A stretch of DNA of 64,000 nucleotides from Acetobacteraceae bacterium (GTDB lineage: Bacteria; Pseudomonadota; Alphaproteobacteria; Acetobacterales; Acetobacteraceae), in NCBI GenBank assembly GCA_025352375.1, contig JANXTL010000092.1, positions 1 to 64,000 on the forward strand, in the 5' to 3' direction. Made by a program: the position numbers and the translations under genes. The notes under the pieces were generated by a model. That model ran no database searches. It worked only from the letters and a program-made list of their open reading frames with translations, and was not told the DNA's origin. This document shows positions 5,674 through 30,222 of the stretch, one piece after another (position 1 is the first letter of the stretch; the number at the start of each line of letters is the position of its first letter).

Positions 5674-6285
5674 ATGAAATTTTTCTACGCCGAAGGCTCC
5701 CCCTACGCGCGAATCGTGCGGATCGCGCTGCTCGAACTGGGGATGAACGATACGGTGGAGAAGGAGATCGTTACCCTGCGCGATCCCGAGTCCGCCCTGC
5801 TGCCCTATAACCCCATCGGGCGGGTGCCGACCCTGCAACTGGACGACGGCACGATCCTGACGGAATCGCTGCTGATTTTCTTCTATTTGGACACCCAGCA
5901 CGGTGGCCAACCGCTGCTGCCGCGCGACGGCTCCGACGGCTGGGTCACCCTCTCACGCATGGGCACCGCAATGGGCCTGATCGACGGCATCGCCGTCTGG
6001 AACCGCGCTTTACGCCTGCCGGAGCATGAACGCTCGCCTGGCGTGCTGGCGCTGGAACGCACCCGCGCTACGCGCACCCTCGACGCACTGGAAAAGGCGG
6101 TGGCGGGGGGCGCCTACACCGGCCGGCTTGACGCTGCGCGCATTGCCCTCGGTTCTACCCTGGGATGGACAGAGCGGCGCCATCGGAAATTTAATTGGCG
6201 AGAGGGACATCCGGTACTGTCGGCCTGGTATGACGACATTGCCCAAACCCCTTCGTTTACGATGACTTTACCGCCGATCGTGTAA
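5674..6285 (+). CDS. glutathione S-transferase family protein
   Basis: 203-aa ORF, MKFFYAEGSPYARIVRIALLELG, N-terminal thioredoxin-fold signature. Confidence 0.85.
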   Translation: MKFFYAEGSPYARIVRIALLELGMNDTVEKEIVTLRDPESALLPYNPIGRVPTLQLDDGTILTESLLIFFYLDTQHGGQPLLPRDGSDGWVTLSRMGTAMGLIDGIAVWNRALRLPEHERSPGVLALERTRATRTLDALEKAVAGGAYTGRLDAARIALGSTLGWTERRHRKFNWREGHPVLSAWYDDIAQTPSFTMTLPPIV

Positions 6286-6335
6286 AAGGTGCAGATTCGA
6301 TAATATATGTTACAAACTGAAGCGCCTCGGTTGGT

Positions 6336-6452
6336 TAGACCATGATCGTTTGAGGTCGCACGCGATCTCGGCGTTGGATCATGGTCTAAGCCTTTGTTTG
6401 AGAGGGTGATTCACGCCCGAGGTTGAAGTCAACCTCAGGCGATCACGCTCTA
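6336..6452 (+). repeat. MITE-like palindromic element family 1, copy A (117 bp)
   Basis: TAGACCATGATC...GATCATGGTCTAAGCCTTTGTTTGAG...GAGGTTGAAGTCAACCTC...GATCACGCTCTA; near-identical to copies at 8083, 12044 (inverted) and 62559. Confidence 0.9.
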
Positions 6453-6489
6453 ATGTGCATGCGTGCCAACCAATCGAGGAGCCCACTTC

Positions 6490-6612
6490 ATGAAGCGTTT
6501 CGTTATCCTGCTCGTCTTGTTCGGCCTGGGACTCCCCCTTGCCGGATGCGTGGTCGAAGGGCCCGGCCGTCCCGGAGGCTCGTGCTACTGGCATCCGTAT
6601 CGCTGCCGCTAA
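6490..6612 (+). CDS. small (40 aa) putative lipoprotein
   Basis: MKRFVILLVLFGLGLPLAGCVVEGPGRPGGSCYWHPYRCR; lipobox LAGC; GAGGAG RBS-like sequence upstream; TAA stop at the border of repeat family 2. Confidence 0.6.
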   Translation: MKRFVILLVLFGLGLPLAGCVVEGPGRPGGSCYWHPYRCR

Positions 6613-6723
6613 GGCCCTGTCCAAAGATAATCGAATCGATCATGCGGATCGGACAGGGCCTAAGCTCTTGTTTTGAACGGCAACTTTGCCGGCGTGCTGA
6701 CGCACTTATTTGCCGGCGTTGCC
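6613..6723 (+). repeat. MITE-like palindromic element family 2, copy 1 (111 bp)
   Basis: GGCCCTGTCC...GGACAGGGCCTAAGCTCTTGTTTTGA...GGCGTTGCC identical to 19303..19413; flanked by TAA direct repeats (6610-6612, 6724-6726). Confidence 0.9.
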
Positions 6724-6759
6724 TAAGCGCTGGATCGGGAAGCAAGCGGCGAGAGGGAA

Positions 6760-7941
6760 TCACGCGAAGTCGTAGGCGCCCGCGATCGTCCGGTCAGCAC
6801 CTGACCAGGCTGCGAGTTGGGCGTTGGCGTACGCCCGCATCCGGGCCTCCCGGCTGGTCGCGTCGCCGCCGGCGTTCGCCCAATCCCCCAGAAAGGTCCA
6901 TGTCGCGCCATCGGGAATTCGGAATGTCCAGCCACCTTCGGCGGGCGCACCGAGTTTATTGAACAGCATGTACCCCATCACTTTGTTCGACGGAATGTTC
7001 TTGTACGCCTTCTCGCCAGGCCGCCATTGGCGGTTTTGGGTCATCTGGTAGGCTTCCGTGTCGAAAGCGCGCAAGCCCGCGACATCCACCGCCCACATCA
7101 CCGCCGTATCTTCCATCTCACGCAGCGGAAAGGCCGTCGCGCCGTAGAAATTGCGCGAAACGCAAACCGCTGATTCGTTGAATAGGTCGTTCTTCGTTGT
7201 CCAGACGCGCGGAGCGTTGGTGTCGAGATCGACGGTCGTTCCCTCAACCTCCCATCCCTTTATTGTATGCATAAGATAACGGTTCTTGAGCTGTGTTGTC
7301 ATGCCTTGACCGGTAACGCGATCGATCGACCGCTGATAGTCCGCGCCAGACCCATCGACCCGAAATCCGACGCCCAGCCCCGTGAAGGCGTCCGGGATTC
7401 GCCCGTTGTTGAGATAAGCCATCGTCATGCCACCCCCCGGTCCGGGGATTGCACCGCTCGGCACGGGCGTGGTGTTGGCCCCGACCAAGGGGGATGTCGG
7501 CTCGTAGAGTTCCCGCGTGAGTTTGTTGTAGCCCCTTTTCGTGCAGACTTTGTTCCAACCCTGATCGATCGCGGCCATTTGGTCGACAGCACTCAGCGTC
7601 ATGAATTGCCGAATGGTCATGATGCCCGGAATTGTTTGCCCACCAATAAGAACGTCTCTGAACAAATCGGGTCGGGTGGAGCCGTTACCGAATGCCGCCT
7701 GTGCGATGATCGTCGTGAGACGTTGCATCATCTTGAATTCGACGCGCGGCAGATTATCGGCATCCGCTCCACCGTTCAGCATCAGGTCCCGTTTGCGCGG
7801 TTCGAAACTATCGATCGGCTTGAGGTAGTGGGTCACGAATGGACTCTGGTTACCATCCGGCATCGGTCCTACCATGCGAACGGTGATCGAATTCTTGTAA
7901 ACGGAAACGAGTTGGTCTCCGAGCATGCGGCTGGGGGGCAT
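6760..7941 (-). CDS. hypothetical protein, family not recognised
   Basis: 393-aa ORF, no motif recognised; bounded by repeat elements on both sides. Confidence 0.6.
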   Translation of the reverse strand: MPPSRMLGDQLVSVYKNSITVRMVGPMPDGNQSPFVTHYLKPIDSFEPRKRDLMLNGGADADNLPRVEFKMMQRLTTIIAQAAFGNGSTRPDLFRDVLIGGQTIPGIMTIRQFMTLSAVDQMAAIDQGWNKVCTKRGYNKLTRELYEPTSPLVGANTTPVPSGAIPGPGGGMTMAYLNNGRIPDAFTGLGVGFRVDGSGADYQRSIDRVTGQGMTTQLKNRYLMHTIKGWEVEGTTVDLDTNAPRVWTTKNDLFNESAVCVSRNFYGATAFPLREMEDTAVMWAVDVAGLRAFDTEAYQMTQNRQWRPGEKAYKNIPSNKVMGYMLFNKLGAPAEGGWTFRIPDGATWTFLGDWANAGGDATSREARMRAYANAQLAAWSGADRTIAGAYDFA

Positions 7942-8082: not shown

Positions 8083-8199
8083 TAGACCATGATCGTTTGA
8101 GGTTGCACGCGATCTCGGCGTTCGATCATGGTCTAAGCCTTTGTTTGAGAGGGTGATTCACGCCCGAGGTTGAAGTCAACCTCAGGCGATCACGCTCTA
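8083..8199 (+). repeat. MITE-like palindromic element family 1, copy B (117 bp)
   Basis: Same 117-bp sequence as copy A apart from a few changes in the left hairpin loop. Confidence 0.9.
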
Positions 8200-12043: not shown

Positions 12044-12160
12044 TAGAGCGTGATCGCCTGAGGTTGACTTCAACCTCGGGCGTGAATCACCCTCTCAAAC
12101 AAAGGCTTAGACCATGATCGAACGCCGCGATCGCGTGCAACCTCAAACGATCATGGTCTA
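12044..12160 (-). repeat. MITE-like palindromic element family 1, copy C (117 bp, inverted)
   Basis: TAGAGCGTGATCGCCTGAGGTTGACTTCAACCTC...GATCATGGTCTA, reverse complement of copies A/B/D. Confidence 0.9.
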
Positions 12161-19177: not shown

Positions 19178-19302
19178 TGCGGTGTTCCCTTGGGGTATGG
19201 ATCGGTGTTAGCGGGATTGGCTACGAATACCAACGTATGCATCTGAAAATAATTAAAAAATCTCATTCCCGTTTATCTTTTGTTAACCAGATTATGCGCA
19301 TA

Positions 19303-19413
19303 GGCCCTGTCCAAAGATAATCGAATCGATCATGCGGATCGGACAGGGCCTAAGCTCTTGTTTTGAACGGCAACTTTGCCGGCGTGCTGACGCACTTATT
19401 TGCCGGCGTTGCC
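19303..19413 (+). repeat. MITE-like palindromic element family 2, copy 2 (111 bp)
   Basis: Identical to 6613..6723; flanked by ATA direct repeats (19300-19302, 19414-19416). Confidence 0.9.
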
Positions 19414-19610
19414 ATAGTCCCGGGCGAAGGACGACCACCCGCACCGAGCCGAGCGTTCATCGGCATCATGGAGGTGGGCGCCGGGTCGGTCATCAAATTT
19501 ATGGCCGCAATCGAGCCAGCCGTATTAAAGGCGGTCGCCGTCTTTCGGATGCCACTTTTTACGCTCGGCCTCGCCGGCCTGCGCAGCTCCTGGCGGTGCG
19601 TTCTGCGCGG

Positions 19611-29381: not shown

Positions 29382-30222
29382 CCTCCTCCATATCGGCGAA
29401 GCTTGGCATGTGTTGGTTCGGTACCATCTTGCGGCCGGACTCGACACTCACCTGCGGGGCGTTCCCATGCAGATGTGTCACGATCACCGCTCGTATGACC
29501 TCGGTGAATTTCGCTTCCTCCTCCACGACGCCTTTCAGCCGGCTCGCGAAGGGGGCGAACATCCCGTAAGCCAGCAAAATCCCCAGGAACGTGCCGGTTA
29601 GTGCCCCTCCGATCATCGCCCCCAGGACTGCCGGCGGCTGATCGATGTGCGACATGGTTTTGATCACCCCCAGCACGGCGGCGATGATACCCAATGCCGG
29701 CAGACCGTCAGCCATGGTCTGCAATGCATGCGCTGGGTGCATTTCCTCGTTCAACGTCTTCTTCAACTCCCGCGCCATCACGTCTTCGATCTGATTGGGA
29801 TCGTCGGCATTCATGCCGACCATACGCAGGTAGTCGCATATCAAGTCGCAAGCGTGTTGATTACCGACAATTTTGGGAAATTTCTGGAATGCCGAGCTTT
29901 CGGTCGGCTTCTCGATATGGGGCTCCAGCGCCATGTTGCCTTTAGTACTCGCGAGACGCACCAGGAAATACATCAAGCTGAGCAATTCGACATAGTCGCC
30001 CTTGTGGTACTTCGCCCCTTTAATAATCTTCCCGAATCCGCCGATGGTATGTTTCACGTCGTGCAACGAGTTCGACATTAGAAAGGTGCCGATCGCCGCG
30101 CCGCCGATCGTCCACATTTCGAAGGGCACCGCTTCGATCAGCGGCTCCATGCTGCCGCCAGATACAATGTAGCTGGCGAAAACACAGAAAAAGACGAAAA
30201 CAAGACCGCCGATGGTGGTCAT
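29359..30222 (-). CDS. motA: flagellar motor stator protein MotA
   Basis: MTTIGGLVFVFFCVFASYIVSGGSMEPLIEAVPFEMWTIGGAAIG...; LPALGIIAAVLGVIKTM. Confidence 0.93.
   Translation of the reverse strand: MTTIGGLVFVFFCVFASYIVSGGSMEPLIEAVPFEMWTIGGAAIGTFLMSNSLHDVKHTIGGFGKIIKGAKYHKGDYVELLSLMYFLVRLASTKGNMALEPHIEKPTESSAFQKFPKIVGNQHACDLICDYLRMVGMNADDPNQIEDVMARELKKTLNEEMHPAHALQTMADGLPALGIIAAVLGVIKTMSHIDQPPAVLGAMIGGALTGTFLGILLAYGMFAPFASRLKGVVEEEAKFTEVIRAVIVTHLHGNAPQVSVESGRKMVPNQHMPSFADMEEAIQQVQM

Follow-up and report, generated by a model that had tools for sequence, protein, structure and literature searches.

Paired-hairpin repeats of an Acetobacteraceae genome: probable MITE-like elements of an alphaproteobacterial superfamily

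Several groups of short bacterial repeats resemble the sequences described here. In the BIME-1 (RIB-RIP) elements of E. coli an IHF site lies between REP hairpins. The RIME, or Rhizobium-specific intergenic mosaic elements, were reportedly described by Osteras in 1995. The CIR repeats (CcrM-associated intergenic repeats, CIR1-CIR4; Chen and Shapiro 2003, cited in Delihas 2008, PMC2229807) abound in alphaproteobacteria and, in the passages of that review devoted to them, are intergenic sequences of ~110 bp with two independent long stem-loops, a linker, 5'TA3' termini and GANTC sites (PMC2229807). The same passages of this 2008 review of bacterial MITEs give CIR no terminal inverted repeats, describe target duplication as unknown, place GANTC at a terminal loop, and state that how CIR move needs more information (PMC2229807). 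For the 155-bp form of the Correia element, the corresponding passage mentions an IHF site that binds in vitro (Buisine 2002, cited in PMC2229807). Among insertion sequences, members of the IS1031 group commonly insert at a three-nucleotide site (PMC2516522).

The stretch analysed here, which we call the window, is the first 64,000 nucleotides of contig JANXTL010000092.1 of an Acetobacteraceae bacterium. It holds four copies of one repeat, family 1 (one on the minus strand), and two copies of another, family 2. No Rfam family reached the gathering threshold over the window, and none was found up to E = 5 at 6250-6800. Among described systems the published CIR repeats fit best, as judged by description, with RIME second. 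The repeats share with CIR a size of ~110 bp, two stem-loops with a linker, TA termini and GANTC, in a comparison made by published description only; they differ in having terminal repeats and target duplications, and the family-1 GANTC spans a stem bulge rather than a terminal loop. The likeness to RIME, drawn in the first-pass annotation of this DNA, is plausible: both are repeated elements, intergenic and rhizobial in the case of RIME, and Sinorhizobium meliloti pSymB carries an element of the same plan, which does not imply RIME identity. Correia/NEMIS, ERIC and RUP MITEs are likewise small and non-coding with TA termini and TA-type duplications, but they form one stem from paired ends, whereas two hairpins and a linker are found here, and the sequences are unrelated. 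Like BIME-1/RIB-RIP, the present elements place what appears from its sequence to be an IHF-like site between two hairpins; unlike them, they have target duplications and no RAYT in the genome. Finally, their 2-3-bp duplications of TA/TNA type recall the short targets of the IS5 superfamily (IS427 and IS1031 groups), but no IS5-type element with the family ends was found in the loci compared.

Anatomy of the elements and their insertion sites

The features of the two families in the window are as follows.

6336-6452: family-1 copy 1, including TA duplications
6336..6337, no strand: TA duplication to the left of family-1 copy 1 (target TTAA)
6338..6386, plus strand: L1, left hairpin of family-1 copy 1, with the left terminal inverted repeat GACCATGATCGTTTGAGG as outer arm
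6387..6401, plus strand: spacer 1 of family-1 copy 1, TAAGCCTTTGTTTGA, mostly unpaired
6401..6450, plus strand: R1, right hairpin of family-1 copy 1, with the right terminal inverted repeat GAGCGTGATCGCCTGAGG as outer arm
6408..6413, plus strand: GATTCA in R1 of copy 1; GATTC is a GANTC (CcrM-type) site
6411-6413: TCA, the conserved 3-nt bulge of the R1 hairpin of family-1 copy 1
6451..6452, no strand: TA duplication to the right of family-1 copy 1
8083..8199, plus strand: family-1 copy 2, including TA duplications
12044..12160, minus strand: family-1 copy 3, including TA duplications; one end on a predicted stop codon
62559..62675, plus strand: family-1 copy 4, including TA duplications; one end on a predicted stop codon
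6610..6612, no strand: left-hand TAA duplication of family-2 copy 1; these bases are at the same time the stop of the small ORF 6490-6612
6613-6723: family-2 copy 1
6613..6660, plus strand: L2, left hairpin of family-2 copy 1, GGCCCTGTCC...GGACAGGGCC
6661..6676, plus strand: spacer 2 of family-2 copy 1, TAAGCTCTTGTTTTGA
6679..6723, plus strand: R2, right hairpin of family-2 copy 1, with a 3-nt bulge, TTT, at 6685-6687
6724..6726, no strand: TAA duplication to the right of family-2 copy 1
19300..19416, plus strand: family-2 copy 2, including ATA duplications; the element itself is 19303-19413

Family 1 reads TA-(GACCATGATC..GATCATGGTC)-TAAGCCTTTGTTTGA-(..GTGATTCACGCC..GGCGATCACGCTC)-TA, with the ends GACCATGATC/GAGCGTGATC, and family 2 reads TWA-(GGCCCTGTCC..GGACAGGGCC)-TAAGCTCTTGTTTTGA-(GGCAACTTTGCCGGC..GCCGGCGTTGCC)-TWA, with the ends GGCCCTGTCC/GGCAACGCC. 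The first-pass annotation had given the letters of both spacers, which proved exact at 6387-6401 and 6661-6676, and had proposed a single architecture for the two families, which folding bears out. Both are predicted to fold into two hairpins separated by an unpaired linker (z = -6.4 and -5.6 vs dinucleotide shuffles). The linker is AT-rich and 12-16 nt long. The inner arm of the right hairpin carries a bulge of 3 nt, which is TCA in family 1 and TTT in family 2 and is conserved as a feature across unrelated arms. The total length of 111-117 bp proposed earlier is correct at its upper end only when the duplications are counted; without them family 2 measures 111 bp and family 1 measures 113 bp.

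The flanks of complete copies carry a regular signature of insertion. TA is present at both ends of family 1 in 59/60 complete copies, preceded by a pyrimidine in 58/60 and followed by a purine in 59/60. The left Y and the right R vary independently; since these outer bases combine freely, the duplication is 2 bp within a YTAR target. The 3-bp flanks of family 2 are of TWA type (TAA, TTA or ATA) and are identical on the left and right in all ten copies. At one locus (L058) a family-2 element is nested in family 1 at the junction of spacer and hairpin, giving AAAGGC-TTA-(family 2)-TTA-GACCATG; the TTA duplication is exact, and intact family-1 copies represent the empty site. A second family-2 insertion inside family 1 (L134) has a TAA duplication. 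These duplications and nested insertions are, as read from the sequence, direct evidence of transposition with 2-3-bp duplications. A search for an orthologous empty site between the window's genome (G000) and another genome of the genus (G003) gave two candidates, both too diverged to align to the base.

Terminal inverted repeats match at 16/20 positions in family 1, where they are imperfect, and at 14/20, 15/20 and 12/20 in three further families, X, Y and Z, described below; those of family 2 are weak (10/20, shuffle p 0.018). The elements therefore combine the features of a MITE, namely small size (111-113 bp), absence of coding sequence, multiple copies (326 spacer matches), terminal repeats and target duplication. 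We consider it likely that families 1 and 2 are non-autonomous MITE-like elements belonging to a paired-hairpin superfamily of alphaproteobacteria that is CIR/RIME-like. In the mechanism that forms part of this proposal they would move as double-stranded DNA, cut and pasted by a DDE-type transposase acting in trans with a 2-3-bp stagger. Our best guess for the source of the transposase is the IS5 superfamily, IS427/IS1031 groups, and its co-evolution with the arms would lead the arms to diverge. The CIR review asks for more information on movement; the present elements are very young, numerous and in places nested, with clean duplications of 2 and 3 bp, and this makes the mechanism directly testable.

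One family-1 copy of the window's genome, at G000:C18:7147 (L080), has its outer ends swapped, with an R-type end on the left and an L-type end on the right, an exchange expected from recombination between the element's own inverted ends. At G000:C354, ~1261-1330 (L168), an IS4-type IS with the ends CACTACTGTCCGGT meets the left hairpin of a family-1 element just within the spacer, and the right half is missing.

The shared spacer in the genus and across the class

The shared spacer, TAAGCNNTTGTTT, has 326 matches in the window's genome (157 on one strand, 169 on the other), compared with a single match for its reversed control (0 and 1 per strand). The resemblance between the spacers, for which chance had been named as the alternative, is thus well above chance. 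The genome is a 5.1-Mb draft in 355 contigs, broken at many element copies; many contigs end in or beside elements (e.g. C21, C129, C172 and C227), so the true copy number is probably higher. The spacers listed for this genome belong mostly to family 1, with a minority from family 2. Elsewhere in the genus there are 54 copies in G003 and 8 each in G013 and G016, with near-background numbers in the remaining genomes. A class-wide pattern, TTGTTTKDNNNNYGATTCA, is one base off, has 0 matches in the window's own genome and serves as a null control only. In G111, an unrelated genome of the class, TTGTTTGATTTRTGATTCA occurs 15 times and seems to represent a different repeat family.

Family-1 copies differ on average by 3.1%, and the consensus sequences of G000 and G003 differ at 1/117 bases, while two comparable chromosomal regions of these genomes are ~75% identical. 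Family 1 is a recent, lineage-specific burst. Horizontal spread is a possible reason for the near-identity between species. A blastn search of 72,556 plasmid records found nothing that matched family 1.

The same core accompanies other arms. Within the genus, elements with different arms include family-2-like (L091, L095, L101, L109) and family-1-like (L104, L105) forms; L095, L101 and L109, from related species, carry TAAGCCTTTGTTT, in which 13 nt are identical to family 1. Families X, Y and Z, found mainly in G003, follow the hairpin-spacer-hairpin plan. Family Z is a second expanded family in that genome (loci L239-L278), with at least 28 matches in 0.56 Mb; no copy turned up in the part of G000 that was sampled. 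The constrained core suggested by the first-pass annotation is therefore supported both by the excess of TAAGCNNTTGTTT and by these related elements.

The sharing could instead reflect common ancestry, with a spacer that has no current function in copies too young to have diverged. This explanation, which we regard as a real though minority possibility, accords with family-1 copies that are ~3% apart and have left the spacer little time to change. It does not readily account for family Z, whose 16 full copies all have TTGTT whereas immediately before it lie some of the element's most variable bases (0.62-0.81), nor for retention of the core where arms have diverged beyond recognition.

Covariance models extend the family-1 plan to other alphaproteobacteria, in support of the superfamily suggested by the first-pass annotation, with matches in ~22-25 genera. 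Model R1 comprises the spacer and right hairpin; model R2 comprises the right hairpin only and was built from 14 sequences. As lower bounds, since 13-15 candidates were scored per genome, R1 matched at least 23 genomes of 22 genera (the window's included; 21-22 others), with a best E outside the genus of 1e-10, and R2 matched, at E <= 0.001, at least 30 genomes of 25 genera, again counting the window's. Because several R1 hits were in the training set of R2, these searches are not independent. R2 also matches (E = 8e-8) the pSymB element of S. meliloti 1021, at ~30045-30164. Although R2 does not model it, a left hairpin lies upstream in most R2 loci inspected. In many of them it mirrors the right hairpin and its inner arm carries GTGAATC, which points to two inverted hairpin units as a possible ancestral plan. 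Covariation is strong: compensatory changes occur in 13/19 pairs, with a covariation score of 0.467 vs 0.141 for shuffled alignments (0/500), although related elements share descent and shuffle p-values here and below overstate certainty. A family-2-type model, R3, gave 5 marginal matches class-wide (E 0.0016-0.01), about the number expected by chance, and the family-2 type is accordingly treated as limited to the genus.

GANTC sites also recur. Families 1, 2, X, Y and Z have one or two per element, and class-wide members have 2.75 per element vs 0.55 in shuffles. In family 1 the bulge itself creates the site; the conserved 3-nt bulge usually makes a GANTC (CcrM) site.

The IHF consensus used for scoring, WATCAANNNNTTR, has 9 specified positions. 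The minus strand of the spacers, AAACAANNGCTTA, matches 8/9 of them, both in spacer 1 (AAACAAAGGCTTA) and in the IHF-like spacer 2 (AAACAAGAGCTTA), and families X, Y and Z score the same. The consensus A is replaced by T (TTGTTT) in families 1, 2 and Z, and members from G311 and G389 match the consensus perfectly. An initial test was biased by its use of R1 hits, whose model includes the spacer. With hits of R2, whose model excludes the spacer, the summed score over 13 other genomes was 86.8 vs 73.7 +/- 1.9 (0/1000 shuffles, interior shuffled and ends kept); over half of the 13 fall below 8, and several class-wide spacers reach only 5-6/9. The enrichment is only suggestive of an IHF site in the spacer across the class.

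As a tentative reading, to which we give somewhat less than an even chance, the linker has been kept as an IHF (or HU) bending site at the centre of the element, allowing the ends to meet. An element of 113 bp is shorter than the DNA persistence length, and a sharp central bend would let its ends come together. If true, the presence of two hairpins around a linker would have a simple explanation in a conserved bending site at the centre. A broader and more doubtful version would apply to paired-hairpin MITEs throughout the class: the central IHF/HU hinge would be the most constrained part, kept because a 110-bp element could not join its ends without a bend made by a host protein, the arms would co-evolve with different DDE transposases, and YTAR targeting would direct insertions to stop codons, which the element restores, so offering harmless landing sites in GC-rich genomes.

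Gene ends, arm pairing and candidate transposases

In G000 and G003 the end TA coincides with the TA of a predicted stop codon in 42/111 elements, against a background of 8.2% for YTAR sites and 16% for those in non-coding DNA; these gene calls, from a simple ORF caller, are approximate and the elements are not independent. An example in the window is the family-2 element that begins in the TAA stop of the small lipoprotein-like ORF 6490-6612. A YTAR target is TA followed by a purine, so an in-frame TA at a gene end was already a stop before insertion, and the inserted element restores TAG (TA + G) on either strand. Restoration of the stop on both strands may allow YTAR sites at gene ends to tolerate insertion; if true, this would account for the tolerance of hundreds of copies.

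The frequent start at a stop codon, together with the very stable hairpins predicted for the RNA, could also mean that the elements are retained because of their RNA structure, as 3'-end stabilisers or terminators that are effectively parts of host genes. We consider this unlikely. Lineage bursts, near-identical copies at unrelated sites, duplications and nesting are the behaviour of mobile elements, and the terminator search returned 1 weak site vs 0.5 expected, leaving a promoter or terminator role unsupported.

The first-pass annotation further envisaged a modular family with interchangeable arms. This is not borne out by the 128 distinct spacers examined in the window's own genome, where arms are cognate in 115 (90 L1-spacer1-R1, 25 L2-spacer2-R2) and there is no free shuffling of left and right. 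The exceptions are 8 tandem R1 units (64 bp), 2 nestings of family 2 in family 1, and 3 oddities. Between species, arms have come to differ through divergence with base pairing maintained, as the compensatory changes indicate, and not by module swapping. Tandem arrays of the 64-bp spacer + R1 unit were seen at L005/L139 (C167), L121 (C4), L128 (C44) and L129 (C48), and tandems of a 115-bp full unit at other loci.

The nested copies raise another route to a common spacer, in which family 2 inserted repeatedly at CTAAG beside the family-1 spacer and then captured it by recombination. Two family-2 copies did insert precisely at CTAAG, but none of the 128 spacers is an L1-spacer-R2 intermediate, and four other species of the genus have family-2-like elements with diverged arms and the same core, from which it follows that spacer sharing predates the window's genome. 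Capture is therefore quite improbable.

Least probable is that these are REP/BIME-type elements moved as single strands by a RAYT (Y1 transposase) recognising bulged hairpins: paired bulged hairpins at high copy number do resemble BIMEs, and the 3-nt bulge is kept across unrelated arms, but PF01797 (Y1_Tnp) has 0 matches in G000 and G003, the two genomes with most copies, so that RAYT is rejected as the mobiliser, and precise 2-3-bp duplications and nested insertion are unexpected for HUH transposition.

For the preferred reading, mobilisation by a DDE-type enzyme, IS5/IS4/IS630-type transposases (PF13340, PF01609 and PF13358) were looked up as partner candidates. The comparison of ends covered the PF13340/PF01609 (IS5/IS4-type) loci, none of which shares ends with the families, and the partner may be missing from the assembly of a draft genome. 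Scanning 1.77 Mb for pairs of family-1 or family-2 ends 0.4-4 kb apart returned none. The end-pair scan gave three family-Z-type pairs, and at L264 and L277 in G003 such ends lie 1.5-3.6 kb apart. A further arrangement was observed at L165 (G000:C342), where an IS5-like transposase gene with DUF4096 and DDE_Tnp_1 domains lies between copies, in direct orientation, of a third hairpin repeat (ATACCAACGGCC..GGCCGTTGGTAT) at ~1200-1256 and 2290-2340; one of the copies adjoins a family-1 spacer and R1 half that lacks L1.
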